Assembly: GCA_012845835.1 (NCBI GenBank)
Contig: JABAKD010000016.1
Coordinates: 2,040,359 to 2,104,358 of the forward strand
DNA from: Undaria pinnatifida
Taxonomy: Eukaryota; Sar; Phaeophyceae; Laminariales; Alariaceae
DNA: 64,000 nt
Reading direction: 5' to 3'
The notes beneath the pieces are model-generated. The model did not search any database. It worked only from the letters and a program-made list of their open reading frames with translations, and was not told the DNA's origin. This document shows positions 25,751 through 55,284 of the stretch, piece by piece; the stretch's first letter is position 1; each line of letters starts with the position of its first letter. The translations under genes and the position numbers were made by a program.

Positions 25751-28700
25751 GTGGAGCGCTTGACGGCATCGAAAGCCACGGCCATCGCCAAGGTAAGCAT
25801 TTGGCCCGCCTTGGCACCCATCGATGCCTCTTCAAGCTTTGTTTTGTTCACGTTTCACGCGTAATTTGTTTTTCACCCTCTTAATTAAGCACGCCCAAAA
25901 ATTCAGACATGCACCCCCTCCCTGAAGCAGAAGCAAGGGGACCTCCCCTCTTTCGCTGAGACACTTTCTACTATAGAGTATAGAGCCAGGTAGCACGTTT
26001 TTTGACGGAAATGTTTTTCTGGGTGACACGGCTCCCTTTAACCAGAACCGTCGTGATTCCATCACCTTTTCTTTTCCATTTCCAATGTTTTTCGCTGGAT
26101 ACCTGCAGCAGTAGGCCATGGAATCTTTGCAGCTGAAACGTTTTCAGAATGGAGGGGGCTTTTTCGGACCCCGCCCCCAAAATCCCTCCCTATACTAGCT
26201 TCAAAGTAAAACAAATTGTCCCCTAAAAAGGGTTTCCAGTAGTAAAAGCGTTAATCCGGCATCGTCGGAACTTTGTCTTTTTTTTTTCTTCCATTTTCCT
26301 ATGTTTTTCCATGTATATCTAGGCCATGGGATTTTCTTTTTTCATCGGGGCAGCACTCTTGTTTTTTCCCAAAATCGGATTTTGGGCGAGGAATACAGTA
26401 CGAAGAACTCCAGAAAAAATAAACGGCGCGGCTCCACCGCCGCATGGGTCGTTTTTTTTTCGTTTTCGCTTTTTTTACTCAAGACACGTGCTACATATAA
26501 ACGATAGGATTTTTTTTTTCGTCGTTTTTTTTTCGATTTTTTTACTCAAGACACGTGCTGCACGATATAGAGTTTTTTTCAACACTTTTTTTTTTCACCA
26601 AATGTTTATTTTTGGCTGGGGATCCTATCCTCCTTGGCTAATGGCCACACTACCCAAATTTCTGGAAAATTCCGTTTTTACTTTTATTTGCAATAGTTAT
26701 GGCTATGCAAGGTTCAAGGTTCGCCTCTGCGGGATATGGTTAGCTTGAAATCTAGGCGGGAGGGGGAAGTCGCGCAAGCCGCAAGTTAAAAATGGGAGCG
26801 GGGGGAAACACTAAAGAAACCTAAAGGGAGGAAATCTTATTAGCCACCGCGAATTTACCCGGCAAGTGGTCAACACCGACACACCCAAACGAGTGTATAG
26901 CGTGTGCCTGGTAGTCTATACATAGCAAAATACCATTGGGGTTGCACGTTCACTTTCTCCCCCAAAAAGTTGGCTTCTTTGGGGCAGGAGGAATAGAGCT
27001 CCGCAAACGAGGAGCCCGGAGCCCCAAAAAACTAATTTTCTGAACGACGGCGCTCCTTAACCCAAAATCGACGAAATGTCATTTTTTCACTCATTTTTTG
27101 CAATAATTATTATTATTTTTTTTTCTTGTATAATACTTAGGCTATGTCATTGTGCATCCATAAGGCTGTTGGGCTTTCATTTTTCTCAAAAACCGTTTTT
27201 TTTTTTTTTTTCGGGGGGGGGGGGTATAGAACCCCTCATGTCATGCGACGAGCCTCGCTCAGATGAAAAAGGCGTGTTCCTCTATCGTTGCACCTGTGTC
27301 GCGAGTTACCAATAGAATATACTTGTCCAAAATACTGGCCGGTCATAACAAAAAACCGCCCCGAACTTTTCGCAGAGTGGGCTATGCCCCGCCCGCCCGC
27401 CCGCTTCCAAGGGATTTGTGGTGCAGACCTACTGAAGGTATCGTGAGTTACTAATGGAAGATACTTGTCCAAAATACTGGCCCGTCATAACAAAAAACCG
27501 CCCCGAACTTTTCGCAGAGTGCGCTATGCCCCGCCCGCCCGCCCGCTTCCAAGGGCTTTGCGGTGCAGACCTACCGAATGAAGGAGATATTTCTCCCTAC
27601 ACCAGTACAGCTTTAAAACAAAAACGCACCAAGTTTTTCACAGCCTGGGGGCTGTAATTATCTATCGTCTCCGTCTTACCATGAAAAGTAAGTGCTGTCT
27701 CGAAACAGAGTGCGAATTCAGTGATTTTCACCCCACCCCTATATATCTCGTCGACATCTACCATCAAAATAATGAGTGACTTAGAAATAGGATGACCTCA
27801 TTATTTTTCACACACACCCCCGTTTATATTATACTGAATATAATAATTCTGATTTATTTGTGCCGTCTATTTCGAAAATATAAATTCGCAATGAACCATT
27901 CCACACAAAAAACTATCCCAAGTTTTCACAGCGCGCGCTTTGGTACGTATCGCCTTCTCTCGCTAGGATAGGTGTGTAGGGGGCACCAGGCGAGGGTGCT
28001 TTTCAGAGGGCTCCTTGATCGGCACCAGAAGGCGTTGACGATTCAGCTGTGCGTGCGTCGGTGGGCCGCTTGGCTCGAGCTTAAACATCGTGCGCGACGC
28101 AGGTGAGCCAAGCCGTATATACTAACCTCGGCACCCGAGCTTACTTATTGTGAAGCTGTTGTCGGCTAGAAATTTCTAATAAAGTTGAGCTGCTACTACT
28201 GCAGTAGACAGAAACTCTGTCAGCTGAAGTAGTCTAACGAGTAGAGCCTTTCTAACCAACAATTGTGTGGCACTTGGTTTTGGATCAAACTTTTGGCGTG
28301 ACACTACAGTAGGAGGTGATTGTGCCCCCAAAAAAATAAAGAAAAAAAAGAAACGGCTCCTCTAAGCTACACATTCACAAACGATTTCGTCTCTTAACCC
28401 AGCCTTATTCCCCCGGTTAGAATGTACCCCCATTTTTCACTACGGGGGCTGAGCTATCGTACCATACCATGCCATACCATACCATACCATACCATACCAT
28501 ACCATACCATACCATACCATACCATACCATACCATACCATACCATACCATGCCATACCATACCATACCATGCCATACCACGCCACACCATACCATACCAT
28601 ACCATACCATACCATACCATACCATACCATACATACCATACCATACCATACCATACCATACCATACCATACCATACCATACCATACCATACCATACCATA

Positions 28701-30890
28701 CCATACCATACCATACCATACCATACCATACCATACCATACCATACCATACCATACCATACCATACCATACCATACCATACCATACCATACCATACCATA
28801 CCATACCATGCCATACCATACCATACCATGCCATACCATGCCACACCATACCATACCATACCATACCATACCATACCATACCATACATACCATACCATAC
28901 CATACCATACCATACCATACCATACCATACCATACCATACCATGCCATACATACCATACCATACCATACCATACCATACCATACCATACCATACCATACC
29001 ATGCCATACCATACCATACCATGCCATACCACGCCACACCATACCATACCATACCATACCATACCATACCATACCATACCATACCATACCATACCATACC
29101 ATACCATACCATACCATACCATACCATACTCGCGCGAGTGACTCTGTACCTCAGACACACTGACAAAAACGCGTTCGGGGATTTTTTTTTTGGTGCAGCG
29201 TGGGGCTAGCCATCCCTTTTCGCATCAATAATCGAGAATGTTCAACAGCACGAAAACCTGTGGCCGCAAGGAAAGGGAGAGGTCACCCTTGCGCGAGTGA
29301 CACCGAGCCACCGAAAAAAGAGTGCCCAAAAGGGGGTAATAACAACATAACCCCACTGCCCTACGATTGGTCTTCACCCTACCGGCAAAATATTGCTTTT
29401 TAGTGTCAGGCTTATGATATATGTGCACTGTAAATCGGACAGTCACTCCCTGCTACGGATTCATAGCATGGGGGGTACGGTGTGATAGATGGGCGGGGAG
29501 CGTGCTCGTTTGTCGCTTGCCTTACGACAGTAATCGTGTGAAGGTTGACCACGCCTCCCTTTCGAGACGGGGCCATTGTTCCTACTCCTCGTCGAGACAT
29601 CTCCAACATTTTGGGCGCTCTCATTACGTTTCTTCCATTTCTTCCATATATAAAAAAAACATTTATCTTGTATCCTGCCCCATTTCTTACATTACAAGAA
29701 AAACTTCATGCTATATCCTGCCCCTTGGGTATGATACGGAGATAGATACTACTGTAGTCTATTTTACGGCCGCTTGTTTCAGACTGCTAGGGTCACTCTC
29801 GTGCGAGTGACTCCCTGGGGGAGCGCAAAAAAGAGAGAAAACTAATCGGGGCGGTGTGATTTCTGTGCGAATCGAGAAAATGGCGTTTTTTTTCAACTTT
29901 TTTTCACGTGGTGGTTGTAGTAACCTCCCCCCCCCACCCACCCACCCCTGCCTGGCTCACCTCAAAAAGAAAAAGGTGTGGGTAAGAGTTTGTTTTTTTG
30001 GTTCGTTAGTGCTCCTCTGGTCTGCCCTATACGATTGTTTGAAAGCCATAAGCGTTAGCGTTTTTGTTTTGTTTTCTGCGTCCGCGTTTTCGAGCAAAGC
30101 AGAGGGGGCGTCCGCCCGCGCTACTCGTACTATTTATAGTAGCTTAACATTCCTCAGTGACGATGGGGTCGTAATATAACTACAACACCGTAGCCAGGGT
30201 CCATTCCAATTATTATTTTGCGTTGAAACTCTTAGGGGTTAGAGCTGTGAGTCGGCACGACTTAAGTCACTAGCTAGTTATTAGCCGGACTGATGGATAG
30301 TCGGTTCCTGCAGGTGCCGACTATCCGACTTATTGGATTTCCACACTTGCGGGAAGGATTGTCTAATAGGGGATGCATGTTTTTTTTTCCTTTTTGAGCG
30401 GGGCCCCCTCGGCCGGTGGGAGCTGACTTGGCTCGCTTCGCTCGCTTGACATAAGTCAGCAAGTCAGCCGGACATCAGTTGGGTTCACCAGCCGACTTGC
30501 CCACTAAAGTCAGCTAGCTGACAAGCGGCAGCTACCAACTACCAGAAGTTATTAGTCGTGAAATCCCGGCCGACTCACAGCTCTAGTAAACGTCCCTCTT
30601 TTCTGCGTATCGTTATCACGGTACCGCGCATGCAGGGATGGAGCCGTGAAAATACAGGCGCTGGTGCGTTCATATATTTCGCGGCGAAAAACGTCTCTTC
30701 TTCTGCGAGAAGCGTATCTTCGCTGCGAACGTCAGGATGCCGCGCGGCGCATCCAATGCAACGCAAGAAAAATGGCCGCTCGGCTAGAGTTTCAGTCCAG
30801 GTGGCAGCTGCGGAAGGCGGCGGTTGTGTTGCAGTGCTGGGCGAGACTCAAGGCTGCAAAAACAAAAGCTTGTCGTCAGGCGCAACGCAG
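25751..30890 (+). CDS. IQ-motif exons of the giant protein gene (calmodulin-binding region)
   Basis: Three exons join in phase: 25751-25792, 27972-28102 and 30636-30890 (acceptors GCAG, GATAG, GCAG; donors GTAAGC, GTGAGC, GTATTT). The join at 25792/27972 restores an IQ-type motif across the intron, IAKVCRGHQARVLF, which strongly supports it. Then follow IQLCVRRWAAWL (partial), IQALVRSYISRR, IQCNARKMAARLEF and LQCWARLKAAKTK, mostly 26 residues apart. Such arrays bind calmodulin or related EF-hand proteins as one long helix. No myosin motor or kinesin head is visible in the upstream exons, so this is not evidently a myosin. The last exon ends in phase 2, which fits the acceptor of the giant exon. 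The introns contain repeats, including a 670-bp ATACC satellite. Confidence 0.8.
27303..27585 (+). repeat. 142-bp tandem duplication
   Basis: The string starting GAGTTAC at 27303 recurs at 27445, and the sequence through 'ttgtccaaaatactgg', 'aaccgccccgaacttttcgc' and 'ccgcccgcccgcccgcttcc' is nearly identical in both. It is recent, given the few differences. Intronic. Confidence 0.85.
28459..29129 (+). repeat. ATACC pentanucleotide satellite, about 134 units, with higher-order pattern
   Basis: The tract is almost pure (CCATA)n with scattered CCATG and CCACG variants. A variant signature, CATGCC, then CATGCC 20 bp on, then a CACGCCACACC or CATGCCACACC pair, occurs at 28548, 28807 and 29000, so blocks of about 260 and 193 bp were copied as units. 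All six frames stay open because only Met, Val, Trp, Tyr, Gly and similar codons are possible; none is a gene. It lies in the intron before the main IQ exon. Confidence 0.95.
29450..29625 (-). repeat. inverted copy of the 8165-8330 repeat (possible LINE 3' end)
   Basis: Read on the minus strand from 29625 it gives 'gcgcccaaaatgttggagat', 'aggagtaggaac', 'cgaaagggaggcgtggtca' and 'ggcaagcgacaaacgagca', matching 8170-8290. No LINE coding sequence is attached here. Confidence 0.55.
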
Positions 30891-31012
30891 GTATTTTTGG
30901 GGGGTTGAATGAAACCGCCCCATCATAGCCAACCGTTACAGCCGGTGGTATTGCGGGGGAACATGTCCTAGGAATCAGGGCCAAATTGGGTAGTAATCGC
31001 AGGAAAAATTAC

Positions 31013-31226: not shown

Positions 31227-31721
31227 GAAATTACGATGTTTGGCGTCCATCGTGGATTCTGATTGTTATGGCTCCCCGGAAGTAAGTATTCCCTACGAGC
31301 GAGGCAAGTTTACACGACGCCTACATTTTAGGGGGTTCGTTTTGAGCTGGGTGGAGCCGGAGATTTAAAAGCTGGTTCTCTCCTAAAAACAAGGAGCATT
31401 TTTTTTTGCGGCTTTGACCATCGCTGACACACACAGTTGACGATAGTTGTTACAAATACCCACCAGGGCAAGTTATTTTACGAGAGCTACCCTATCTTAA
31501 CAGAGAGGTAACAGAGCACATAACACCCTGCAATCTGCTTTCTTAAAGCTGGGCAATCTCACTCGAGGCTCTCCTCGTGTGGTGCGGACAGAGCGGCGTG
31601 GGTTACGATTACTATCACCTTGTATGTGTTGACGTGTGTGGCGGCCTCATTTCAACACTGTGTCCAACAACTTTCCGTCCTTCTTCGTCGCATGCGTTCA
31701 CGGATGCAACTTGAATCGTAG

Positions 31722-34700
31722 TGCTGCTCTGAGCCTGGAAACCACCATGGATCCGACTTCCGTGGCAAACGTGGAAAACCAGCAATCTTCGGTTGTGGGC
31801 GAGGCATCTGCAGCTGAGCCGCGGGCCGCTGAAACAACCACTCACGCAGCGGTGGCCCCCTCTGCGCATGGGCCCGTCGTCGAAATGGAGGAGGATCGAG
31901 GTTGGGCAGAGGGCGAACCGGATTCCGATCTAGCAGTGATGGCGCACGAAGCAACTGCTCACGAGGTGGCTCCGGCGTCTCAAGGGCCTGGCGAGAAAAT
32001 GGAGGAGGATGGAGCCTCAACAGTGGGCGAACCGGATGCAGATGTAGTAGTGCCGGACGACGAAGCACCTGCTCACAAGGTGGCCCCATCGTCTCAAGGG
32101 CGCGGCAACGAAATAGAGGATAGAGCTTCGATGGCCGATAAACCAAATGCAGATTTAGTATTGCCGAGCAACGAAGCAACCACTCACGCGGCGATGATCC
32201 CTTCTTCGCAAACGTCCGTGGTCGAAATGGAGGAGGGTGGAGCTTCGATGGCCGACAAACCGGATGCAGACGTAGTAGTGCCGGCCGACGAAGCAACTGC
32301 TCACGCGGCGGTTCCCTCGTCTCAAGGGTCAGGCAATGAAATGGAAGAGGATGGGGCTTCGACAGCGGGTGAACCAGATGCAGACGTAGTAGTGCTGGTC
32401 GACGAAGCAAATGCTCACGAGGTGGCTCCGTCGTCTCAAGGGCCCCGCGACGAAATGGCGGAGAATGGAGCTTTGGCAGTGGGCGAATCGGATGCAGATG
32501 TAGCAGTGACGGCCGACGAAGCAACCACGCACCCGGCGGTGGTACCTTCTGCGCAAGGGCCCGTGGTCGAAACGGAGGAGGGTGGAGCTTCGATGTCCGG
32601 GCAACCGGATGCAGATGTAGAAATTCCGGCCGACGAAGAAAGTGCTCACGGGGTGGTTCCGTTGTCTCAAGTGCCCGGCGACGAAATGGAGGAGGATGGG
32701 ACTCCGGCAGTGGGTGCACCGGATGCAGATGTAGTAGTGCCGGCCGGCGAAGCATCCTCTCGCGAAGTGGTTCCGTCATCTCAAGGGTCCGGCGACGAAA
32801 GGGAGAAGAATGGAGCTTCGGCAGCGGGCGAACCGGATGCAGATGTAGTAGTGCTGGCCGACGAAGAAACTGCTCACGAGGTGGCTCTGTCGTCTCAAGG
32901 GCCTGTGGCCGAGATGGAGAAGGATGGAGCTTCGGCAGAGGGCGAACCGGATGCAGATGTGGTAGGGCCGATCGGCGAAGCAGCTGCTCGCGAAGTTGCT
33001 CCATCGTCTCAAGGGCCCGGCGGCGAAATAGAGGAGGATGGAGCTTCGGCAGCGGGCGAGCCAGATGCAGATGTAATAGTGCCGGCCGACGAAGCAACTG
33101 CTCACGAGGTGGCTCCGTCGTCTCAAGGACCCAGTGACGAAATGGAGGGGAATGTAGCTTCGACAGCGCGCAAGCCGGATGCAGATGTAACAGTGCCGGC
33201 CGACGAAGCAACTGCTCACGAGGTGACTTCGTCGTCCCAAGGACCCGGCGACGACCGGGAGGAGGACCGAGCTTTGGCAGCAGGCGATCCGAATGCAGGT
33301 GTAGTAGTGCCGGCCGACGAAGCAACCACTCACGCGACGGTCGCCTCTTCTGCGCAAGGGCCCGTGGCCGAAAAGGAGAAGGATGGAGCTTCGGCAGTGG
33401 GCGAACCAGAAGTAGATGTAGTAGTGGCGGCCGACGAAGCAACTGCTCGCGAGGCTGCTCCGCCGTCTCAAGGGCCTGGCGATGAAATGGAAGAGTATAG
33501 AGGTTTGGCGGCGGGCGAACTGGACGCAGACATGGTAGTGCTGGCCGACAAAGCAACCACTCATGCTGCGGTAGCAGATGTACTAGTGCTGGTCGACGAA
33601 GCAACTGCTCACGGGGTGGTTCCGTCGTCTCAAGGGCCCCGCGACGAAATGGCGGAGAATGGAGCTTTGGCAGTGGGCGAATCGGATGCAGATGTAGCAG
33701 TGACGGCCGACGAAGCAACCACGCACCCGGTGGTGGTACCTTCTGCGCAAGGGTCCGCGGTCGGAACGGAGGAGGGTGGAGCTTCGATGTCCGAGCAACC
33801 GGATGCGGATGTGGAAATTCCGGCCGACGAAGAAAGTGCTCATGGGGTGGTTCCGTCGTCTCAAGTGCCCGGCGACGAAATGGAGGAGGATGGAGCTTCG
33901 ATATCCGGGCAACCGGATACACTTGTAGTAGTGCCGGCCGACGAAGAAAGCGCTCACGGGGTGGTTCCGTTGTCTCAAGTGCCCGGCGACGAAATGGAGG
34001 AGGATGGGACTTCGGCAGTGGGTGCACCGGATGCAGATGTAGTAGTGCCGGCCGGCGAAGCATCCTCTCGCGAAGTGGTTCCGTCATCTCAAGGGTCCGG
34101 CGACGAAAGGGAGAAGAATGGAGCTTCGGCAGCGGGCGAACCGGATGCAGATGTAGTAGTGCTGGCCGACGAAGAAACTGCTCACGAGGTGGCTCTGTCG
34201 TCTCAAGGGCCTGTGGCCGAGATGGAGAAGGATGGAGCTTCGGCAGAGGGCGAACCGGATGCAGATGTGGTAGGGCCGGTCGGCGAAGCAGCTGCTCGCG
34301 AAGTTGCTCCATCGTCTCAAGGGCCCGGCGGCGAAATAGAGGAGGATGGAGCTTCGGCAGCGGGCGAGCCAGATGCAGATGTAATAGTGCCGGCCGACGA
34401 AGCAACTGCTCACGAGGTGGCTCCGTCGTTTCAAGGACCCAGTGACGAAATGAAGGGAAATGTAGCTTCGACAGCGCGCGAGCCAGATGCAGATGTAACA
34501 GTGCCGGCCGACGAAGCAACTGCTCACGAGGTGACTCCGTCGTCCCAAGGACCCGGCGACGACCGGGAGGAGGACCGAGCTTTGGCAGCGGGCGATCCGG
34601 ATGCAGGTGTAGTAGTGCCGGCCGACGAAGCAACCACTCACGCGACGGTCGCCTCTTCTGCGCAAGGGCCCGTGGCCGAAAAGGAGAAGGATGGAGCTTC

Positions 34701-37700
34701 GGCAGCGGGCGAACCAGAAGTAGATGTAGTAGTGGCGGCCGACGAAGCAACTGCTCGCGAGGCTGCTCCGCCGTCTCAAGGGCCTGGCGATGAAATGGAA
34801 GAGTATAGAGGTTTGGCGGCGGGCGAACTGGACGCAGACATGGTAGTGCTGGCCGACAAAGCAACCACTCATGCTGCGATGGCTTCTGCGCAAGGGTTTA
34901 TTGAAATGGAGGAGGGTGGAGCTTCGATGGCCGACAAACCGGATGCAGGTGTAGTAGTGCCGGCTGACGAAGCAATTGCTCACGGGGTGGTTCCGTCATC
35001 TCAAGGGCCCCGCGACGAAATGGAGGAGGATGAGGCTTCGCCAGCGGGTGCACCGGATGCAGATGTAGTAGTGCTGGCCAGTGAAGCAACCTCTCGCGAA
35101 GTGGCTCCGTTGTCTCAAGGGCCCGGCGACGAAATGGAGGAGACTGTAGCTTCGGCAGCGGGGGGACCGGATGCAGATGTAGTAGTGGCGATCGACGACG
35201 CAGCTGCTCACGAGGTGGCTTCGTCGTTTCAAGGGCCCGACCACGAAATAGAGAAGGATGGAGCTTCGGCAGTGGGCGAACCGGATGCAGATGTAGTAAT
35301 GCCCGCTGACCAAGCGACTGCTCCCGAAGTTAGTCCATCGTCTCAAGGATCCGGCGACGAAAGGGAAGATGATAGAGCTTCGGCAGCGGGCGAGCCAGAT
35401 GCAGATGTAGTAGTGCTGGTCGACGAAGCAACTGCTCACGAGGTGGCTCCGTCATCAGAAGGGCCCCATCCCGAAGTGGCGGACGGCGAACCTCCGGTGG
35501 CCGACAATGTACGGATGTACGCTGAAGCAACTGATCACGAGGTGGCTCCGACCTCGCCAGGATTCCAGTCCAAAATCCCGACGGCCTCTGCTGAAGAGTT
35601 GGGGGTTCTACGGCAAAGGGCTGCTAACGAGAAGGAACTATCAGCTGCAACCGTGGATCCATTGGACACTGTTCCTGTGGGCACAGAGGAGTCACATCTT
35701 GATGGTGTGTGGGGGGGCGTTTCCGAGCCTGAACGTGTGACTTCTGCGTGCTCAACGGCGGCAGGTAATATTGCAACTCTTGGAGCCGAGGGGCGAGCGG
35801 CTGTCTGTGACGATGAGCACCTTGATGGTGAGGCGACAACAAACACTGAAGGCATGCCCTCTACCTCAAACGAGAACGTACCCTCGTATCAGGGAGGGGC
35901 GGTGGTTTCCTCCCCGGATGCTGCGGTTCCCGTTGGCGATGAGCCTGTTGTTGAAGAAAACCTCGCTGACGCCGCGCAGTCGATAATGGTGGCTACGGAA
36001 GAGATGTCCGCGACTGCGATAAAAGGCAATGATCCATGCGCCACCCCGGATGGCGAGCCTATCCGTGATGTCGATTTATTTAATCTTAAACCTGAGCTTG
36101 AGGGCGAGCCGGTTGGTTCTGCCGTCTGTTCGAATCTTCAACCCGAGCGTGAAACTTGGACGGACCAGAATGACTGTGTAAACTCTAGATGTTTGGGCGA
36201 TCTTGCTCTGTCAGCCGCGGATATTGTCGGAGTGACCAAGGATGTCGATAGCGCTGCACGGCTTCCCCCGGGGCTAAAGCAGGATATCACCCCAATAAGC
36301 GTTAAGGACGAGGCATGGATGGGCGAGCCTAATCCGGAGAAAGTTGCATCGGGAGATTCTAGCATGACGGTCGAGACATCTTTCGTCGTTTCTGCATCAG
36401 ACGACCCTCCGATGTCAATCACGAAGCCTGTAAAAAACGCGGAGGAAACCGAAGCATCGCAGCCCATACCCGTCGCTACGCAGGAAACGCTGCAGCAGAC
36501 AGCGGTCAAGCGAAATTCCGCGATCATCGCCGAGGACGGGGCATCGGCTGATGGGTCCAAGTTGTTAAAGGATGTTGCGCCGGGACAGCCTACTACAACA
36601 GCTGAGAATTTTGTTGTCGTTCCAGCGTCAGACAATTCGCCGTGGTCGGCCGCAGAAGTCGTGGGAGATGTGGAGGACGCTGAACAACCACCGCCTAAAT
36701 CTGCAGCTTCGAGAGATAGGGCAGTGACTGCAATCAAGGACAACACCCCTACTGATACTCTGGGTGGGGCATCGGTTGAGCAGTCTGTCTCCGAGATCGC
36801 TGTGCAGGAGTCCATATCCCCGGTGGTCGCGGAGTGCGCTGTTGGTCCAGTATCCTGCGGCAGTACCGGGCGAACGAGAACGGTGACGAATGCTGACGTC
36901 GAATTTCCCACTCCTGAGGCTGGAAACGAAACCTCAGTGGCCGCGATCGAGACCAGCGCCCCTAACGTCGTTCCGGGTGGAGCATCGAATGATGAGCCCG
37001 CTTCAAATACCCTTTTCGTGGAGCGCATGACCCCCGCAGCCGAGGAATCGGTCACCCACCTAGTATCGGACGGCCTCATCTCCTCACCTGACGAGACGCC
37101 GACGGTGGAGACTGGTGACACTGATCACGCGTCTGTGAAAACGGAGGACTCCCCGGTGGTTGCTATGGAGGAAAATGCTTATGTCGCCGTTCGAGACGAG
37201 GGGTCTGCTGGTGAACCCGCTCTTACTACCCCTGCGCCGGATCGGATCGCTCCCGTACCCGAGAAGCGCATTTCCCGCAAGATGTTGGAAAATCCTACTT
37301 CTGTAGGTGGGGAGGATTCGGAGACAGTGGAGGGTCCTGAAATCCCACAACCTACTTCCGTGTTTTCTGAGATGTTGGTTGCCATGACCGAGGATAGTAC
37401 AGGCATCAACACGACAGACGCAGTGACTACTGAAGCGCCCGCGTGTATGATCCCTACGCCAGAGGACATGACGCCTGGAGACGAAGAGCCTGTGACCGTC
37501 TCGGGCACGGCTGGTCGTGCCTTGGCGAGCGCGGGGATTCCGAGTACGATCGATGATACTGGCGTCGAACCGCACACCCTTGAGGCTGGGGAGGAGATGC
37601 TAGCGACCGCTAACAACCAGGTTAGTGCCTCTAACGCAACGGATGGCGCATTGCCTGAACAGCTTACTTCGAAGACTGCTGCACCGGAGCGCAGTGCAAT

Positions 37701-40700
37701 GGCTCCTGCCGAGGAAGTGGACATTTCGAGCACGATCGATCCTACTTTGTCAGCCACGGAGCCCCTGGGAATCGTGGAGAATGCCGATGTTGAGCAGTCC
37801 TCCTTTGCGGGTGCTGAGAAAGATGTTGCTGGTGCTGAAGAAGAGCATGCTTCCACCGTCTCCTTGGGAGAAGAAGCTACCGGTAAGCCCTCTCTTGTTT
37901 CCTCTCCGCTCGAGCACGTTACACGCTCGGTCGAGAGATCTGTTGATGTCCCGGCGACGGGTGAGCCTCCTTCAGTGTTGACGGATACCTCAGGATTGTC
38001 TGAAGTGGCTGGGTTCCAACAACCCACCTCTTTGGTTGGAGAGGAGAACAATATGACTGCGAGGCAGATTCATACCACTTCCGACGCTACAGATGGTGTA
38101 TCGGCTGAACCCCCTGGTTTGGAACCTACCTCACTGAAGTATAGTGCAAGGGATACCGAAGAGAACCTCGCCTCTCTGGTCACGGACGATCTTGCTGTGT
38201 CGGCTACAGGGGGCCTGGAGATCGCCGCGAGGGATGCCGACATAAAACAGCCCCTACCTGTGGATACGGAGGTACCGTTTGAGGGTGGCGTAGACGTTAA
38301 CACACGCACCAACATCCCGGATCAGGCGTGGGCTGATGAGCCTACATACCTCAACCAATCGTTGGCGCACGCTACCCCGGCAGTCGAAGATTCGGTTGCC
38401 GTTGCGGTCACGGGTGACTCTCCCTTGGTACCTGAAGGAGCCCTCTTGCGGATGGAGGAGGATATTGACATCGAACATCCCATCGAACAGCCCACTACCG
38501 AGGAAAGGGAGGACACGCCATCTTTGGCGGTCGAGGATAGTGTTCCTCACAACGTTCCAGACCAGACGCCCGCTGATGAGCAGCCCGCCTTGATCGTACC
38601 TTCCCCGGAGGGTGTCGCCACTGCGTCTGATGGGAATGCCGCCGTTCAGGGTTTGGAGGACCGGGACTTTTCGGCTGCAGGCGTCCTGAGAGCAGAAGAA
38701 GCTGCGGACCTTGACCGTAGTGCCCCTATCGCCGGGGAGGAGTCGCTAGTGGGTTCAGTCGAGATAACCACCCCTTCTGACGCCATTGATGGGCCCCCCT
38801 CTGCTTTGGAGTACACCTCCACTATGACCGAAAAACAGGTCGCCGCCCCAATCATCGACGATCCTGAGTTGTCAGCCGCGAAGGTCTTGGGGGTGGCGAG
38901 GGATGACGGCAGTGCACAAGATAACCCTGTGAGGGCGGAGGAAGCGCTTGCAGGCGCGATAGAGACTGGAGATCGCCCCACGGTCCTCTCGAACGAGGCT
39001 TCTGGTGCTGAACCTGACCACATCCCTCGTGCGCTAGCGCACGTAGGAGCAATACCCGAGGGGTCTGTCGCCGTCTCTGTCACAGATGAGTCTATATCGC
39101 CGGTCAAGAAATCTCCGAGAGAAGCGAACGAGACTGACACCGAGCGGTCCGCTCCTGAAGCTGTCGAGGAAACGCTCGAGGCTGCCGTATTGGAAAATAT
39201 CTCCGCTATCGTCCCGAATTTGGCGTCCGCTGATGAGTATGCCTCGGATATCGATACACTGGAACGTGTAACCACTGTAGCCGAGGTGTCTGCCAAGGTT
39301 TCGGATTTGTGTGATCCTATTCCGTTCACCGCAGAGATGCCGGGAATGGAGGAAAGTGACGACGATGTCGAACAACCTATCCATGCGGGCGGGGGGGGGA
39401 AACTTGCGGGAGCGGTAGGTGACGACGTCGCCACGGTCGTCGTTAGCGGGGTGCTTGTTGACGAGCCTATAGACACAACTCCGCCCCCGGAGGATGTTAC
39501 CTCCGCAGCTACGGTGTCAGTCGCCGTCCCGGTAACGGTCGATCCCCTGTTGGCCAAGGAGACCCCGGAAACGGAGGACAATGCTGGCAACGAGAATTCC
39601 AACCTCGCGGTTAGTGAGGGGACACTCGTGACGACGATTCAGGTTGATGGTGCCCCCACTAACGCTGCAGACCCCGCGTTGTATGAACCACCTGCTCTGG
39701 AGATCGTCATGCCCGAAGATCGTACCAATACAGACGATTTGCAAGTCGCCGCCTCCACCACGGACGATTTGTTATTGTCAGCAACGGAAACACCTGACAA
39801 GGATGAGGGTAGCGATGCTGGACGAGGTACCCCTCTGGCTGGTAAAATGCTGGTGTCTTTTGAAAATACTAGTTTCGCCGCTAATACTGCGGACGACACG
39901 TCGACCGAAGAGCCCGCATTCGAGGCATCGACGCCGCGGCACATTACCCACATAGCTGAGGAACTCGTGTCCGCTCTTTCCGCGGGCGAATCAGCAATGC
40001 CGCCCGTGGGCGTCCTAGGAATGGTGGAAGGTGCTGACTTCGAACACCCCAGCCCTATTGCCGACAGGCCCATTGCCGAAGAACCTATTGCCCCGAGACC
40101 GAACTCTGTGGCTGCGACGGAAGAAAATGCCGTTCTTACTGACCCCGACTCGGAGTTGACTCAACAGCCCGACTCCCTGACTTCCGCGCTGGGGTACGAA
40201 CCTCCCGAAACCGAGAAACCTGTTCCCAGTCCGGGCATTGGCGATCTCATCTTGCCAGAAACAGCGACATTCGGAGTGGAGGAAGGTGCTACTGGAGCGG
40301 TGATATCTGGAATGAAGGGGGATGTTGACTTTAAAGATCGCATTCCTGTGACTCAGGGGGCGATAGCTGAAGCTTCGGCGGAGGAACGTGTTCCCACCAG
40401 TGATACAGGCGAGTGGTGGGCAAAAGAACAGTACGCTGTGACCACTGCTACAGTGGAGCACGTTTCAACGACGCCCGAGGAAGGAATTGACGCATCGGCC
40501 AACAGCGATCCCATTTCTTCAGCCGCGGAGGCTCTAGGAGCTGTGGGGAATGCTGGAATCGAACAGCCCACCTCTGTGGGTGCCGAAGAAAAGCTGGCGG
40601 GTCTGATAGAGAAGGGTGTGACAGAAGAAACCGCACCCACAATTGTCCAGGATGGGGCGTTTGTCGCCGCTACATCGGAAGGTGTACCCGCGGTAGCCGA

Positions 40701-43700
40701 GGAAGACATGGTTGCGCCAATAATTGATAGGCCCACCTTGGCAGATGAAGATAATGTGGAAACGGCGAAGAGTTCTGAGGTCGATCAACAAGTCGCTGTG
40801 CCCGAGCAGGCGATGTTGGGGGCTGCGATTGATCAAAGTCCGCCAACGGCTGTCCTCGATGGGGTATTCGACGAAATTTCACCTTCTACCCTATCTTCTC
40901 CAATGTGTGTAGCCCCTGCAGTACCTGGCACATCCCCGGCAGAGGCTGCCTCTGTCGTTGCTTACGTCGCGGGCAGTCCTGTCTTGTTAGCCGCGGAGAT
41001 ACCTGGAGCAGCGGGGGGTAGCGACATTGAGCAGCCTACCCCTGTGGCTGGAGAATCAGCGCCAATGGCAGCGATCGAGGGTAGCAGTGATACAGCCGTC
41101 GTGCGAAAGGAAGAATTGGCTGAACACATTACGTTCGGAGTGGCTTTGCCGAAGCACGTATTCATGTCAGCCGAGCAGCCTGTAGCTGTGCTCGAGTCGA
41201 GCGATTCTAGCTTGTCGGCCGAGGACGTGCGGGCAATGACAGAGGGTGTCGATATCGTAACACCTCCTCGTGCTGTTATGGGGGAGACGGTGACCGTAAA
41301 TAAGGACTTTGATGTCCCGAATGGGGCGTCGACTGAGAATGCTGTTTCCAAGCTCACTGCATCGGAGTATGGCACATCGGTGGCAGCCGAGGACATTGTC
41401 AATGGCCAGAAAGATGGCGAGTACACCGCGTCAGCCGCAGAGGATGTAGGACAAGCGGCGAACGACGACGTTGAACAATCCACCAACGACCTTACAGAAG
41501 CACTCGGAGCTGCGACCGAAGATCACGCCTCCACCAGCGTATTGAACGCAGCATCCACCGGGAATGTCAATTATATGTCCGCTACACCGGAGTCCGAAGC
41601 CTCGGCAAAAGAAGAACCCACCAATAATCTCGATGATTTAACCTCGTCTGCCCGCGGGGTGGTGGGGATGGTAGAGGATGCTGAGGTTGCACAACCCGCC
41701 CCCGAGGCTGGGAAGGAGTCCCTGGCGGCTACGGTTGAGGGCGTTGCCCCAGACGTTGTCCTAGACGCGGCTTTGACTGAAGAGGACACCACTATGACCT
41801 CTGCACCAGAGCATGTAGCCCCAGCAGCCAAGGATGTTGTCGCTGTTTCGGTGTCGGGCGATCCTACATCGTCGGCTAAGACGCTAGGGATAGCAGAGGA
41901 TGCTGAGGCCGAAAAGCCTGCCGTCGTGGCCGGGAAGGAGAAGTTGGTGGCTGAAATCGAATCTTCAGGAATACCAGATGTCCGCGACGGAGTGGTTACT
42001 GAAGACCCCGATCCCACAGTTTATGTGGATGTGTCGGGAGATCCGGCAACCGAGAGCTCTCTGACCGGCCAAGAGTTAGGTACTTGCACTTCGTCGATAG
42101 GTGAGCCATCTAACCGTATCGCTGACAACGCTCTTCAGGCGCCCGCAGATGAAGCTTCTGTGGCAATAGCGGACGATGCAGAGGTTCAGAAAAATGTTGC
42201 TGAGACTTCAGAAAGTCAACAAGTCGAGGCGATTACTCCGGAGGTAGTTGCGGAGACACAAGTGATGGAAGAGGGCACTCAGGTTGGAAAAGAACACCCC
42301 ATAACCGGAGAGCAAGCACCAATTACTACTATTGGGGACGGTGAACCTGCCGCCACCCTTAAGCCACTTATGCCTGCGGAGCCCACTCTAGATTCAGCTG
42401 CGAAGATAGAAGGAATTTCGGGAAACGGGGAAACTGTTGCAGTTGCCCTTGCTGTCGACGGTGGTGCTAAAGTGTATACGGATACGTCTCTGCAATCAAC
42501 GATGAGGAGCGGTGAGAGAGAGGAAGCTGTCGCCGGTAACGCTGCAGTCCTGTCGGCGGACGCGCTGTCTATGGATGTAACCGAAGGCTCATCGGTTACG
42601 GCGGATGGCGCTGAAAATATACAGCGTTTGTCTGGGACTGGGGGTCAGAAGCTAGAGGATCCGGTCGATGGCATGGACTCAACCGTTGCAGTCGATGAAG
42701 CGACCCCTGAAGGACTATGTTCCATTGCTCCTCCGGAACCGACGAGCAAAGGACTTTTCGCTTCACCAGAAACGGGTGGCCCTATCTCGTCGGTGTTTGA
42801 TTCGCCATCGTTGGCTGTTGATGGTGCCATTGAAAAATCCGAGGAGCACCCTCGCGCGAGTACGACGGAGGATGCTGAGGTCCATCACATTGTTGACGGT
42901 ACCGTCGAGGGCGATACGGCGGAGGTGTCCACGCCCTTGACACCCACAGAGGTATCGGGAACGGCAGAGGGCGCGCAAAGCGGGCTCTCTCCACTCATGG
43001 CAAAGGAGGAAAACCAGGCATTGTTCTCTGGCGGAGACCCCGCTGAGAACGCCGCTTCCATGGCATATATGGAGGACGAAGCGACAGCCAGACAACCCCC
43101 CGTCGAGACAACTGCGATGGTGAATGACGACTCGGCAGCCGAGGAATATATCGCGGACCAGGCAATGGGCGACCCTGTGTTGTTGGTAGACGAAAAATCT
43201 GCTTCGGCTGTCGATAACGCCGTTAACGGTTCCGTGGACAAGGAATCAGTTAAACTTATTGACGAGCTAGCAGCCCACGAGGCTGGCGCTCAGAATGCGG
43301 AAGCCAAGCGGGATAAGGCCTCCATTCCAAAGGATAACCATCAGCCATCGGGGATGGCAGGTGAACTTGAAATCACACCGCCCGTCCCTGTCGGTGACGA
43401 GGGAGTGTCGGAAACCACTACCACAGTACCCGGGTTCGTGAGTGCTACGGAGGGCGAATCCATCGCAGTAGCCAAAGACCCTCTTGTCGGCGCCGGTTTG
43501 GGTGGTCCCACCTTGCCGATGAACAAATCGTCCGTTTTTAGGACTGACTCGAACGGTGATGTGTCTGTGGACCAGGCGTCTGTAGCAAACGTGCAAGAGG
43601 ATGAGCTCCGTGAAGTTGCTTCCGTTAGTACCCAGGACACACCAGCGGAAGTGTTTAATGCCGAGCAGCCCGCTCTTATGGCTATTAAAAACGAGACAGT

Positions 43701-46700
43701 GGGTGACACTGCGGGAAACGCTGCGAGCGAGGGAGCAGCGCCAAAGGATCCCGGCTCTGAATCTCACGAGACGGAAGACAACTCTTCGGCAATCGAAGAG
43801 CCTCACACGCAGCCTGCACCATATGCCCCTGCCTCGTCTGCTGATGCCGCATCCACTCTCGACATCGACGGTTCCATCGGGATGGTTGTGACCGTAGCCG
43901 CAAATGGCAACGTGGAGGTTTCGCAAGCTGCAGCTGACAGTGTTGAGGACAGGTCTGTGGGGGTTGCTACTCCGGAGGTGGTCGAGATTACGCCGGAGAT
44001 GTCTTCGACTTCAGCACAGGAGAAAGGTCCGGCTGACAAGGAGCCTCCGACCGACGCATTGGTTGTCAATAGCGCGCCTGCAACCTCAAGGGATTCGAAG
44101 GTCGAAATAGGTTACCCTGCAATCGGGGAGGAGACGGTCGTGGCTGACGCAGAAAGTACAGCACCGATTATCCAAGATGGAAGTATCATCGACGAACCTT
44201 CTTCAGTGAGCGTCACACCAGCTGAAGGAGCCCAAACTTCCCTTGAGCCGCTTGCCGATGGCTTCCTGGCTGCTTCTGTGGCGCCGGTGAACGACGATTC
44301 TGGTCTGTTTGTCGCGCACGATGTTGACGGATCTGCCAATAATGCTCCGGAAGAAATAATCGAGGGGGGTGAGATTCGCCAGGGTTCTACCGATGGATCC
44401 CAGGACAGAGCTATAAGGGGGGCTGCTTCCGAGGTGACGACAGAGGCCCCTGAAATGACGCCGGACCCCGAGGTAGAGAAGGGCTCGCCTATGGTTGGGG
44501 AAGAGACCCCGGTGGCTACCATTCGGGACGGTATGGAGCCTGCGGTTAACGACGTGTCAGCAATGGCCGAGAAGAACAGGGAGGAGGGCAAGACACAGCA
44601 CCCTGACGTAGTCCTTGCCGAAAGCGGACCGGCCGAGGTTGTCGATCCCGAGGCAGATAAGGAGAGTCGGAAGGCGGGACATTCAGAAGGGGATACTGAG
44701 GTCGTGACACATGTCAATGTAGTTGGGGAGGAAGCACCACCTGCTACGAGCGAGGAGAGTAGGCCGATTGCCGGTTTAGACAAACCTAGCACGGACTTTG
44801 AAAGATCGACCGTCGTTGGTAACGGGGCATTCACTGCCGAAACCGCGACACTTGCTGTGGCGAACGAAGATGCAATTCCACCAGCCGAGGAGACGTGCGC
44901 CAGAGGAGTCGTCCCCGGAGACCCTACCTCCCTTCTCGATGTCGGATGTTTAGCCACGTCCGGTGCTATTGGTGAATCGGTGGACAAAACCGCGGAGGAA
45001 GTATCCACGATCGTAGGCGAGTCGGATGAAGGTAAACAGATTGTCACCGAGGTGCCGGAAAGCGTACAGGCGGATACGCTCGTTCCAGATAAAGATGGTC
45101 ACGAAATGGCACTGGCGAAGGATACAGAGCCCAAGCAGACCATCCCTGCAGAGTCCACATCGTCCCCTGCGGCTGATAAAGAAGAATCAACGCCGTGTGC
45201 CGAGGATCTCATCACCGATGTGGTGCCGCGCGGCTCTACTTCGTTGAATGACGGAATACATGTTAGCGCTGGAGTCGAAACTGCTGAGGTATCCGAGAAG
45301 ACACCGTTGACAACCACTACCGAGGATGTTGAAGGGCGACAGGCTGCAATCGGTGCTGCCGAGAGCGGACTTGCTGAGGTGCTCACCTCGGAGGATTCTG
45401 CGAGTGTGAACGCGGCTGCGGGCACAGAGATCGATATCTCAGCTCTTTTGGCCGGGGAGGAAACGCCGGTGGATGATGTAGGGGAAGAAGTGCCGGCTGC
45501 CGCAGCTAATGATGGAACGGTCGTTGACGAAACCTCTTATGCTGCCACTGTTGAGGAGCAAGACGTACCGATGACCGAGACTACTATCCCTACCGCCACC
45601 CAGAACGGGACCCATGCAGGAGTAGAGCATCCCTCCTTGGGTGCTGCAGAGGAGCAAGAAGCTCCCCGAAACGAAGAGTCCCCTGCCGATGATGTTGTGT
45701 CGGGCAATACTCCCTTGTTGCTGAGCGAGGCGTCAACACCAATACTAGCCGTTAGTGATGTTGGGGACACTGACTCTGTACCAGCCGCCCACGAGCCAGT
45801 CGCCGAGCAGCCTATTTCCTTGGTTTCCGTGCAGGACATTGCACCAACCGTTCCAGCAGCTGAGGAGTCTATCACGGACATTGATGTGTCGGGGTGTTCG
45901 CCTGATTTTTCCCTCGGCAATGTATATGAAGCATCCCGGGACGTGCCAGTGGGAGACACGGTGAATACGCAGGAGGCTCAGAAGGTTCTAGATGAGGCGA
46001 CGGAGCGTGGGCAAGAGAAAGTGCTCATTGCCCAGGCAGCCGAGGAGGCATCGATGGCGGAGAAAAGAGACGGTGTTGAATCCGCCCCTGTAGGAGGGGA
46101 GGCGCTTGTTTCTACGTACAAGTGCAGCGTACCGAGTGTAATCCCTGGCGAAGGGACAGCTGACAATCACGCCTGCTTCAACACGCAAGAGGAGGAAGAG
46201 GCAGCTGCTCCGACGGCCAAAGAGCATGTTGTTAACGCAGTGGTTGGCGGTTCTGCCACGGCCGATGACGAAGCACCAGTCCTTGCGGAGGACGACACCA
46301 TGGGCATGCTCCAGCACAAGGCGCGTGGAAACTCGACTGCCGGTGGTAACATGGACAAGCTGGCAAAAGAACCAGCTCCAGAGCTGAATGTGGAAGCTTC
46401 AGTGCGCGAGGACAATGTTGAGGGCGACACTCATTCGGTTCCTGACTTGGATGAAAATCCGGGCCATAGCTATGCAGAGGACAACCAGTCCACCACTCTG
46501 GGTGAAAGGGACGCCATGGGACTTGAAGATGGGGCAGTCGATCAACAAGCAATCCATGAAGCTGAGAGGGTATCTACAGGCGTGATCGAAACCACGACTG
46601 AGCATACAGCCCCCATGCATAGCAGCGAATCCGCGGTCGCCATTGAAGGTAGACAGATTTCTGAAGAGATCGTTTCAGTAGCTGTTGTGGAAGAGGCTGG

Positions 46701-49700
46701 CGATGCTTCGAAGGCAACCCCACAAGCAGGAGTAGGGTCGGGTGGTCCTGACTCGGCTGTGAACGAGCCGTCCGTATTTATCAGTGATCGCGCCGACGAC
46801 TTATCCGCCGAAGAAGTGCGGGGGAATGTGGCCGAGGATGATGTAAACGTTCAGCGAGAAGTTGCTTTCCCTAGAGACGACAAACCGGTAGCGAGTGTGG
46901 AGAAGGCCGTGCGCAGTACGGAGAGGGGTGAGAAGGAACACGTTGTCGAGGCTGCGGAAGAGGGGGCGGAAAACGTGTTTCAGGGTGTGGAAGGGGTTTT
47001 AGAGCCCGTAGGCAAAACTGCCGAGAGAGATGCGCAACCCGTCGAATTCGAGGAAGAAACAGCCGTGGAAGAACTTCAAGCAGCCAATGGATGCGACGTT
47101 TGTGGGGAAAGAGCGCGGGACGAATATGCCGCAAATGGGGTTCCCGTCGATGGCGCTGTTAATGTGACTGAGGAGCAGGAGGGGAAAGGGGCTGTTCACG
47201 AGAAAGCTCAGGCAGCCAACGTGCTCGCTGGTGATCTACCTGGCGAGGCATTACCGCTGGATGCTAATCCGTGTGTAATAAGCGCCGCGCAGCCCACCGA
47301 TGGAGCGGTTGAGCAGCCGGCCGTGAGTTCCGTGGGTGACGGTGACGTGGAACGCATCATCGCTTGTGATGCCGAGGGTACAACGACAAATAATCGCACC
47401 CTGAACGCAGCCGAGGATCCAGGAAACCCAGCCGTCAACGATCCCGTTCAAGAAAATTCTGGGAAAGAAGAAAAAACTCCGCCACCCGAGGAAAACCTCG
47501 TTCATAGTACACAAGTCGAGCTTGTTCCACCGGAAGACGGGAAAGTATCTCCCGCCGTCGTCGACCCTATTGAGGATTCCGAGAAGGCGGCAACTGCAGC
47601 CGGGTTATCTCTCTCAGAAGACAACCAGATGATTGCCCCAGGAAAAATCCTCCCCGAGGTTAACGAAAACGAGTCCAATGACACAGTTACCGAAGCGGCA
47701 GCCGAGAAAACCGATGCCCAGCAGCTTGTCCGTGAAACTGAGGAGGATGAGATTGTGAATTTGCCAACTCCGGAGGAAGAGAAGGTCGAGGAGGAAATCG
47801 ATGACGCCGGAGAAGGAACTCCAATAAGCACGATCAAAGACAGCGTGCCAAATACTGCCTTGGACTCTGAGGGGGCGATTGTTGACGTGCCTCCTGGCAC
47901 GACCGCATCGGAAGCAGAAGCAGTCCCGGCAGAAACCGAGCAGACCCTCACCTGTGCGACGCTGGGTGATACCCCCCACTCGCCAGTAGAACCGGAAGAA
48001 GCAGTTTACCACACTGTGGATGAAGCTGCAGAGACATCCCCGGCCGAACGTACGCCGGAGGTGATGGATGAGGGCGAACTTCCACAGGCGATGGCTACCG
48101 TCGGGGAGGATAGCCCAGTTGCAACTATGAACTCAACCGACAACGCGACGGTGGGCATGGAAAAGGGATTTCTCGCGGACGGGGCTGGATCCGTTATTCA
48201 GAGTGTAGATGAGACTACCGACGGGGAAGCGGCGGGGGAAGAGCGTGTCACGGTTTCGGCCAAAACGGAGGCTGAACATCCCCCTTCCCTCGCAAGCGAG
48301 GGGGCTCTTGGTAACAAGGGGGTGTCGACGATTTCTTCTGCTCAGGAGAAGCGAGCTTCCGTCGACGAGAGCAGTGATGTTGGAGAAGAGCACGATTTTA
48401 AGGTTGGGGAAGAAAACGAGGTCAAAGTTGAAGAAGAGCAGAACGTTAAGGTTGGAGAGCCTATAGCTGACGCGGAAGGTCTACGACCAGCCTCGGCGAA
48501 CGACATGGTCACCGCCGACCACGTCGAGGACAACCCGGACTATGTACCTGAGGCGGAAGCAGGGGGTCATTATGAAGAGCCCACGTCTGCACGTTCGGGA
48601 GAGGGATTGATGGCAGGGAGCAAAGATAATCCGGTCGTCTCACCCCCCCTAGAGGAGGTTCAAGCTACAGACGATACGCTTAATGGCGATGAGGAGATGC
48701 GTTCATCGAAGGCAGCGTTAATTGGTTCTGCAATTGAGGCCAATGTTGTGGACCCAGCTTCGGATTTATTGGAGGGGCGACAGAAAACCGAGCCCGTTCC
48801 TGTCACGGAAGAAGCTACTTCTCCCAGGGAAGCCGAGGTATGCGTGCCGACCGCGGGCGAGTCAGGTGACGAAGCGGTCGAGCAGACAGCAGAGGCACCA
48901 AAAGAACATGCTGAAGAAGGCGTTCAGCCTAACTTCGTAGCTGTTGAAGGTCCGGCAGATAAACTTCCAGTGGCTGTCAACGCTACCATGGAGCAAGAGG
49001 GCTTCGCGACACCTGTTCATGAGTATCGCCCTGAAGACCCCGTAGACAACAGTGAAGCAGAAACACCTGTTATTGCAAATGATGCAGACCAATTTGGATC
49101 CGTTGCTGCTGATGACGGTGTGGCGCGGGAAGACAGGGGGAACGCTGCCGAAGATGCAAAAGAGATACTCGAGGATCCCCTCGTGGAGCCAGTCGATAAA
49201 CCCCTAGAGAAGACGCCGGCGTCCCCTCAAATAGCAGTGTTGGCTGTCGGAGGGCGTGATACTTTAACAGCGGTGAACGAACCGGCGGCAAGAGACGAAG
49301 AGGGTTCAACCGCCACCGCCACAATGGGAGAGGCCAAGGTCTTGACCGAGGCTCCGGTAATTGAGCCCACACCCGAGTCTGTCGAGGCCGGGGGGGCCGA
49401 TTTTGCTGCGCTTGAAGGAGCGGCCGTCTCCGAGCCGAAATGTTCGTTGGATACTGACGTCGGAGAGTCGATAGGGGACGAAATATCTGTTGAACTACCG
49501 GCGGCGGATGCAGGAACGGATGTACTGTTAGCGCCCGACAGCGTGACAGTTCACAGCGAGAAAACGTCAGCCGATGGTCAAGAGAAGCTTCCGGTTCACG
49601 AGACCATTGACGATGCGGATAAGCTGGGAGTCGGGGTAAAGCAGTCCATCCTGGTGACAACAGAGGATGCGACGACCGCAGTGTTTGATGACGGTGTTCG

Positions 49701-49953
49701 TTCGAACGAAATACACCGTGAGAGTGTTCCGCCTAGCACGGCGACATTAACATCGCCGGCGGAGGAAAAACATCAGATTGTGGCCCGTGACACGCCGGTG
49801 GTGGCTTCGGGTGTTGGCGATGATGCCGATCAACTCGTGGTCGCGACCGTCGGAGACGGACGTACGTCGAAGGACAAGAAACTGTGTTCCACCTCCTTGC
49901 AGTTGACAGCGGGGGAGAAAGAATCGACTTCTTCCACTTTGTTGGAGTTGTAA
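31722..49953 (+). CDS. giant acidic tandem-repeat exon, more than 6,000 codons in one frame
   Basis: A single frame runs without a stop to TAA at 49951-49953. Acceptors TCGTAG (exon from 31722) and CTGAG (from 31734) both match the phase-2 donor of the IQ exon at 30890, so the exon can continue the IQ protein. Alternatively translation could start at ATG 31747, which has a strong ACCATGG context and gives 6,068 residues. The product is rich in Ala, Glu, Asp, Val, Pro, Ser and Thr, strongly acidic and poor in Cys and Trp, so it should be disordered. Three zones: 38-residue repeats (to about 35580), diverged repeats of about 75 residues (about 36300-42060), and longer, weaker repeats. No enzyme domain, signal peptide or membrane segment is seen. 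With the IQ array a scaffold or entropic-spring role is conceivable, but that is inference. Confidence 0.82.
32380..33573 (+). repeat. first copy of a 1,194-bp in-frame tandem block duplication
   Basis: About ten 38-residue units starting with 'gcagacgtagtagtgctggtc' are repeated nearly base for base from 33574. The shared order of unusual units (TTHPAV, ESAHGVV, ASSREVV, AAAREVA, EEYRGLA) identifies the block. Confidence 0.92.
33574..34877 (+). repeat. second copy of the 1,194-bp block, plus one extra 114-bp unit
   Basis: It matches 32380-33573 with few base changes but contains one additional unit (ASISGQPDTLVVV) around 33889-34002. The block was copied once and then gained a unit, all in multiples of 114 bp. 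Confidence 0.92.
36300..42060 (+). repeat. coding repeats of about 75 residues, roughly two dozen diverged copies
   Basis: Recurring landmarks in each unit are a DGA(x)xDEP segment, a PE-(H/R)-V-TPAAE segment, a (V/T)-x-D-P-x-LSA-x-E-x-LG segment and DADVEQPTPVAGEE(x)LA. Divergence is much higher than in the 38-residue zone, so this zone is older. Confidence 0.75.
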
Positions 49954-50445
49954 ACGGGAGACAGAGAAGCGGGGTTGGTCAGTGGCGATGAGCTTCGTGA
50001 GAGTGCAGAAGTGGTGCTAGACCCGGCGAAGATGGTTCACTTCGGAAATCCTTCTTCGTCTGAGGATATTGAAGGAGGGAAAACTGCACCGATTGAGCAA
50101 GCTACCGCCCTTGCAACCTCGGAGCCTGCACCAAACTCCCCGACCCCAGGAGAGGTGGCGTCGTTAGCCGTAGAGGGTACCGGCATCCTTGATTTGGACA
50201 CATCTTCTCCGGTGCCTGTCGACGGAAACATAGGCGTCGCGATAGCCGATCAACCACAACAACAAGCAGCGACGTCTGCTCCCAACGAGCAGCCTCTCGC
50301 AAGAACCAGCAGCAAAGCAGAGCCTGGAGGGCCATTGGGTACAGACGTCGCCTTGGAGGATGACGCTGTCACAAAAGAAGTACCACGCGCGCCGACGGAA
50401 AAAGAGGAGGAGAGTGTGCACAAGCTATCAAACGCAGTCATCGAG
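49954..50445 (+). CDS. in-frame continuation of the giant exon after a TAA, ending in a splice donor
   Basis: Directly after the TAA the same frame stays open for 164 codons with the same Ala/Glu/Pro/Ser-rich acidic style (for example EVASLAVEGTG and EVPRAPTEKEEESVHK) and ends GTCATCGAG with donor GTAAGA at 50446, phase 0. This is exactly what the 3' end of the giant exon should look like if the TAA were absent. It could reflect a sequencing error, a nonsense allele that removes the C-terminus, stop readthrough, or an intron I cannot see; a GTAAAC does overlap the stop at 49950, but no phase-fitting acceptor of normal distance was found. Confidence 0.6.
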
Positions 50446-55089: not shown

Positions 55090-55284
55090 CTCAAGGTGGC
55101 GGACAACATGGCCGCCCTGGACGTGGTCAGCAACACTATCAAGACGGCGCGTTCTCGCGTCTCACACTCCCATGACAGCGTGCCCCAGCAAAATCCCAAC
55201 GACCCCCTGCCTTTTTCTGGAAGCTCTCTTGGCCGCGAATGTAAGCCCTCTGCCTTTTCTAGAAGCCCTTTCGCCCGCGTATAA
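55090..55284 (+). CDS. candidate 3' exon of the giant gene
   Basis: An acceptor CCGCAG at 55084-55089 opens a frame in phase 0, matching the phase-0 donor at 50445. It reads LKVADNMAALDVVSNTIK, then a Ser/Arg/His-rich stretch, and either splices at 55240 (donor GTAAGC, phase 1) or runs to TAA at 55282-55284. This segment is more globular-looking than the repeats. If the TAA at 49951 is real, the exon would be reached only by readthrough. It could also belong to a separate small gene. Confidence 0.45.
   Translation, partial: LKVADNMAALDVVSNTIKTARSRVSHSHDSVPQQNPNDPLPFSGSSLGRECKPSAFSRSPFARV

Follow-up and report, generated by a model that had tools for sequence, protein, structure and literature searches.

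Neurofilament tails, the projection domains of MAPs and the PEVK region of titin are disordered proteins acting as side-arms or spacers. Tandem IQ motifs are a feature of myosins and ASPM. The nearest known kind to the locus described here would be AHNAK and AHNAK2, and the likeness is at most one of architecture, not of membership. According to passages of PMC10682155, a giant exon (about 17.6 kb in AHNAK2) lies between small exons and encodes proteins of about 600–700 kDa with a short PDZ head and tandem repeats of about 128 residues (AHNAK) or 165 residues (AHNAK2). Our window is a stretch of 64,000 nucleotides from the kelp Undaria pinnatifida (assembly GCA_012845835.1, contig JABAKD010000016.1, positions 2,040,359 to 2,104,358 of the forward strand), and all coordinates below are counted within it. 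As far as those passages describe AHNAK and AHNAK2, the kelp locus shares with them a giant exon of the 17–18 kb class, small flanking exons, a short head, tandem repeats and a similar mass. It differs in its repeats of 38, 75 and irregular longer lengths, although some spacings in the third repeat zone are near 128, and in a head with IQ motifs and no PDZ match. PDZ was looked for in the joined head, the giant exon and the plus-strand frames of 3001–31601, where an intron-cut domain could escape.

The tandem IQ motifs of the kelp head are common to myosins and ASPM, whereas the acidic, repetitive tail sets the locus apart from these proteins. Neither a myosin head nor a calponin-homology domain was matched in the three plus-strand frames of 3001–31601, in which a finely intron-cut domain could escape; the only PDB myosin match of the IQ exon, Myosin-5A, was not significant (E 0.085). 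Head frames score above the cut-off of the IQ profile PF00612, and membership of the giant exon in an IQ protein would follow from a proposed splice between 30890 and 31722. Like neurofilament tails, MAP projection domains and PEVK, the kelp tail is long, charged, poor in aromatic residues and built of repeats, but it comprises about 6,000 residues from one exon, and no Pfam cytoskeletal domain was matched in giant exon or head. Among the matches listed from open-licence papers, no title or abstract opening describes such a protein. The initial annotation had placed the product in no known family. This applies to the giant exon alone, which had no Pfam match and, by sequence comparison of its tail (residues 1–4426 and the remaining 1650, of 6076) with PDB sequences, no match at E 0.1; the locus as a whole is not family-less because the upstream exons bear IQ motifs.

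The giant exon and its repeats

The giant exon is a real coding exon, acidic in composition and built of repeats. Its main features are:

31722..50445, plus strand: giant exon, 6076 codons up to the TAA at 49951, then 164 more of like kind to a strong donor; its length is 18.2 kb as far as the TAA and 18.7 kb as far as the donor at 50445
31912..35502, plus strand: zone 1, with 31 repeat units, each about 38 residues long; their consensus is GEPDADVVVPADEATAHEVAPSSQGPGDEMEEDGASAA
32713..34875, plus strand: young block duplication within zone 1, its copies offset by 1308 bp and differing at 10 sites over 855 bp
35899..42003, plus strand: zone 2, with 26 repeat units, each about 75 residues long
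42013..48171, plus strand: zone 3, diverged and irregular units that grow fainter in the 3' direction
49861..49950, plus strand: the 30 codons preceding the TAA, not tail-like (−0.20 bits/residue, under the 1st percentile for tail windows of 30 residues)
49951..49953, plus strand: single in-frame TAA, with tail-like coding sequence beyond

The uninterrupted frame of more than 6,000 residues from about 31722 to 49950, claimed by the initial annotation, was borne out: on the plus strand, 6106 codons (31633–49950) are free of stops up to the TAA at 49951–49953, while the remaining two plus-strand frames of the same interval contain 231 and 328 stops. Continuation of the frame to 50445 stood in part, as it is open as far as 49950 and one in-frame TAA precedes 50445. 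The longest frame without a stop reached 379 aa in 70 kb sampled from seven other sites in this genome. The GC content of 2-kb bins was 56–60 % in 32–50 kb versus 44–55 % in the bins outside 30–50 kb; the 70-kb sample had 49.9 %. A non-coding repeat array, open through chance or homogenisation, is a very improbable explanation and is largely refuted. In its favour, the tandem array of zone 1 is young, and the minus strand there is likewise open over 1081 codons (31652–34897). However, the diverged zones 2 and 3 (4806 codons; zone 2 units have 23 % identity) hold no stop versus 183 predicted by a first-order Markov model (minimum 157 in 50 runs), and all 31 units of zone 1 hold one reading frame despite lengths of 37 (2 units), 38 (23 units), 39 (5 units) and 54 codons (1 unit). 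The antisense opening is probably a by-product of the repeat composition.

Autocorrelation and unit search agreed on periods of 38 and 75 residues in the tail. Within zone 1, the 10 differences of the block duplication comprised 3 synonymous and 7 nonsynonymous changes; from so few differences in 855 bp a recent growth of zone 1 follows. Zone 2 has the consensus EHVTPAAEESVAVSVTDDPALSAAEVVGMAEDADVEQPTPVAGEETLVAAIEDSAPTAVPDGASAD and a unit spacing near 75 residues (67 to 94, with one gap of 173); its count uses 26 of 34 profile hits, the other eight lying in zone 3. In zone 3, with 12 profile hits, six of the 11 spacings measured 104–149 residues and autocorrelation revealed no clear period. 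Shuffled sequences returned the seed alone, except that one of three shuffles of zones 2 and 3 gave a second hit. Thus the description of three repeat zones with 38-residue, about 75-residue and longer units was largely confirmed, with the reservation that zone 3 is irregular. The further claim, that the zones are one repeat at increasing age, is not demonstrated, since homology between the units of zones 1 and 2 failed two tests: hhalign gave 8.9 versus a mean of 8.4 (sd 1.6) in 40 column-shuffled controls, and a permutation test gave P=0.36. The strings DADV...P and DGASA, shared by zones 1 and 2, look good by eye, yet failed both tests.

The tail (6076 residues, 31723–49950) contains 14.6 % A, 12.3 % E, 8.3 % D, 10.6 % V, 2.5 % K and 2.3 % R. 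In total, D+E account for 20.6 %, K+R for 4.8 % and F+W+Y+C for 1.9 %; the net charge is −958 and the pI 4.05. Over its whole length the tail falls on the disordered side of the charge-hydropathy line, but only 79 of 120 windows of 100 residues do so; the tail is probably disordered. Raw counts of short motifs (SP/TP 86, CK2-like 195, others) presented nothing striking.

Selection appears to guard the frame strongly and the residues at most weakly. Twenty-three of the 31 zone 1 units, those of exactly 38 residues (we set the length of the last unit in the zone), were compared with their consensus (Nei-Gojobori) and had a dN/dS of 0.70; pooled over pairs the value was 0.69, for 14 units outside the duplicated block 0.67, and for the young duplication 0.81. 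Neutral simulation with the observed mutation spectrum yielded 0.84 (2.5–97.5 %: 0.65–1.06), with P=0.077 for a value as low as the one observed. In contrast, these 23 units contained no stops versus 6.5 expected, and none of 1000 neutral runs was stop-free; under a simpler simulation, 6.1 stops were expected and a fraction of 0.003 of the 2000 runs had none. As the units of zone 1 are not independent, these P values are approximate. Zone 2 units had a pN of 0.50 and a pS of 0.645, compared with 0.66–0.72 and 0.74–0.78 when aligned out of register; the excess of third-position changes is partly compositional because all five out-of-register controls also show more third- than first-position change. 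The statement of the initial annotation that selection has kept the exon coding is therefore supported by the lack of stops and has to be restricted to the frame, the residue constraint in zone 1 being at most weak. Synonymous codon bias was discarded as a coding test: it is too weak in this genome, with about 0 bits for the IQ exon and −20.6 bits for zone 1.

Beyond the TAA the frame is open again to 50484. The 164 codons between the TAA and the donor at 50445 (score 6.2) attained a tail-likeness of 0.362 bits/residue, inside the tail's own range, versus a maximum of 0.074 in 364 non-coding frames and −0.69 and −0.65 in the other two frames of the stretch; the first 18 of these codons had 0.35 bits/residue. 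Tail-like scores and a strong donor together indicate that tail-like coding sequence extends to 50445. The TAA itself may be a true stop, an assembly error, a site of read-through or the content of a small intron; all four are possible. According to passages of PMC7058681, the U. pinnatifida M23 assembly was built from PacBio reads and corrected with Arrow and Pilon, thus a single wrong base is possible. The un-tail-like stretch of 30 codons ahead of the TAA is what either a small intron or a specialised C terminus would explain. An intron spanning the TAA gains no support from the splice scores, as the best in-frame donor/acceptor pair scored 1.3, a value matched or beaten at 79 % of 199 control positions in the exon. 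It is unlikely that the gene is decaying, with the TAA as a genuine nonsense mutation by which an earlier C terminus was lost and with a tail on its way to disappearing. Such decay would account for the tail composition of the 164 codons up to the donor and for the weak residue constraint, but 6076 codons are without any other stop, the TAA may also be a wrong base of the assembly or sit in a small intron, and the 30 codons preceding it are not tail-like.

The IQ head and its probable connection to the giant exon

Upstream exons were chosen by eye and then by translation; a single phase match has a chance of 1 in 3 to arise by luck. The six proposed junctions have AG/GT borders and yield a single open frame. 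Together with a candidate last exon, the gene model comprises, besides the giant exon:

22234..22328, plus strand: candidate upstream exon of 95 nt, AG/GT borders, in frame with the next; coding or 5' untranslated
22515..22943, plus strand: exon with the first in-frame ATG at 22530 (MSPFNSVRSL...), AG/GT borders
25198..25464, plus strand: exon, part of the open chain
25751..25792, plus strand: exon of 42 nt, start of the degenerate IQ motif 1 (by eye)
27972..28102, plus strand: exon with the remainder of IQ motif 1 and IQ motif 2
30636..30890, plus strand: exon with IQ motifs 3–5; its phase fits the acceptor at 31722
55090..55284, plus strand: candidate last exon, in phase with the donor at 50445, stop at 55282–55284; we infer it from outside the listed scan candidates

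The small exons expected around the giant exon were found, the six proposed upstream exons measuring 42–429 nt, and the boundaries 30636, 50445 and 55284 of the initial annotation each fall on a usable splice or stop site. Introns of the model are between 186 and 2533 nt long; if the candidate last exon is correct, the one that follows the donor at 50445 has 4644 nt. No convincing candidate for additional 5' exons was obtained between 10.4 and 22.2 kb. Just 5' of the first proposed exon lies a 34-base tandem repeat of twelve copies (21506–21915), and in an intron of the proposed gene the 5-base unit TACCA is repeated about 134 times (28460–29129).

About 370 residues are encoded by the upstream exons, the last part of them forming a tandem IQ array. 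PF00612 matched the frame 30562–30906 with an E value of 1.6e-5 and 24.7 bits (cut-off 20.3) in three stretches, and the joined head with 3e-6 and 27.0 bits in four stretches; inside a whole-frame scan of 4533 residues the score was 14.7 bits, under the cut-off of 20.3. By eye five motifs are recognised at spacings of 26, 26, 33 and 26 residues, the first of them degenerate and split by an intron. The final 135 residues of the head have a net charge of +29. CCDC66 (E 0.33) and the other sub-threshold Pfam names were taken as chance matches. From the ATG at 22530 to the TAA the model protein has 6446 residues and about 660 kDa.

Exon 30636–30890 is probably spliced to 31722, in which case the giant exon would encode the tail of an IQ protein no shorter than 6,446 residues. 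The phases of donor 30890 and acceptor 31722 agree. The acceptor is weak, with a score of −3.4 versus 1.0 to 2.2 for the other six, and the giant frame has a possible start of its own:

31747..31749, plus strand: possible start ATG in the Kozak-like context ACCACCATGG (31741–31750), 6068 aa if the giant frame is its own gene

The Kozak-like context means that the giant frame could be its own gene. Two genes would then adjoin: an IQ protein whose frame continues past 30890 and stops at 30910, and a giant acidic one-exon protein of 6068 codons from the ATG at 31747. We regard this arrangement as the less probable one, to be kept in mind on account of its start context, the weak acceptor, the early stop of the IQ frame after a modest donor (score 2.6) and the 0.8 kb in between, which is partly CGGGT-rich. 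Against it, donor and acceptor agree in phase, and the IQ protein would finish right behind its last IQ motif.

A possible role for head and tail

We assign a probability of roughly 0.5 to the reading that the giant exon encodes the tail of a kelp protein whose head, encoded upstream, ends in a tandem IQ array, so that the protein would combine a Ca2+-sensing head with a polyanionic spacer tail. The basic head (+29 over 135 residues) could bind calmodulin or centrin, and via the bound EF-hand protein it may anchor the molecule or sense Ca2+. The disordered tail, with a charge of about −958, would be a charged polymer brush or a spacer, setting a distance and binding or buffering cations; perhaps it folds back on the basic head until calmodulin displaces it. 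Such a tail would require length, charge and an open frame, and few exact residues. Repeat expansion by unequal exchange might provide a continued supply of length beside the head. A role of the brush or spacer type predicts weak constraint on residues and strong constraint on the frame, as found; the same pattern would also fit a tail of little function beyond being harmless.

A wider proposal, which we put forward tentatively, is that of a brown-algal giant polyelectrolyte of AHNAK-independent origin, with an IQ/calmodulin head and an acidic tail of 6,000 residues. Selection would see frame, length and charge and hardly the residues, new 38-residue units would arise beside the head, and older zones would fade distally. 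If this is true, the brown-algal giant could serve as a Ca2+-switched brush in cells of ion-rich seawater. The locus presents a natural test of the demands of selection on a very long disordered polyanion, the three repeat lengths within one exon being internal replicates in which frame, charge and residue constraint are measurable separately. With the IQ head joined, it would represent a calcium-linked giant protein, of which to our knowledge few are known in the brown-algal lineage. The giant exon would also be among the largest single coding exons of any alga known to us.

Relatives and genomic neighbours

Paralogues were sought in the genome of 511,146,479 bases on 68 contigs, only the best candidates being scored: zone 1 DNA, the IQ head, zone 2, the N-terminal head and zone 3 each matched this locus alone. 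For zone 1, pattern matches were obtained in IMG/VR (35) and in GTDB genomes (209), none of them confirmed by tblastn.

Upstream on the same strand, BBS7 domains were identified within 3688–10345 (plus strand): the platform with an E value of 8.1e-12, the hairpin with 6e-14 and, below cut-off, 0.0019. On these profile matches the interval is assigned to a gene for BBS7, a subunit of the ciliary BBSome. The next recognised gene downstream carries a PEX14 (peroxin) N-terminal domain at 62992–63099 (plus strand, E 6.3e-10), thus the gene of the giant exon sits between BBS7 and PEX14. Frames at 7116–7867 (plus strand), between the BBS7 domain matches, had no Pfam match; they resemble what we take to be the end of a non-LTR retrotransposon reverse transcriptase. 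Arrays of CGGGT occur at 18286–18482 and 53830–53900, and a degenerate CGGGT-rich stretch at about 31040–31200; these sequences, located in introns and flanks, seemingly belong to a dispersed element.
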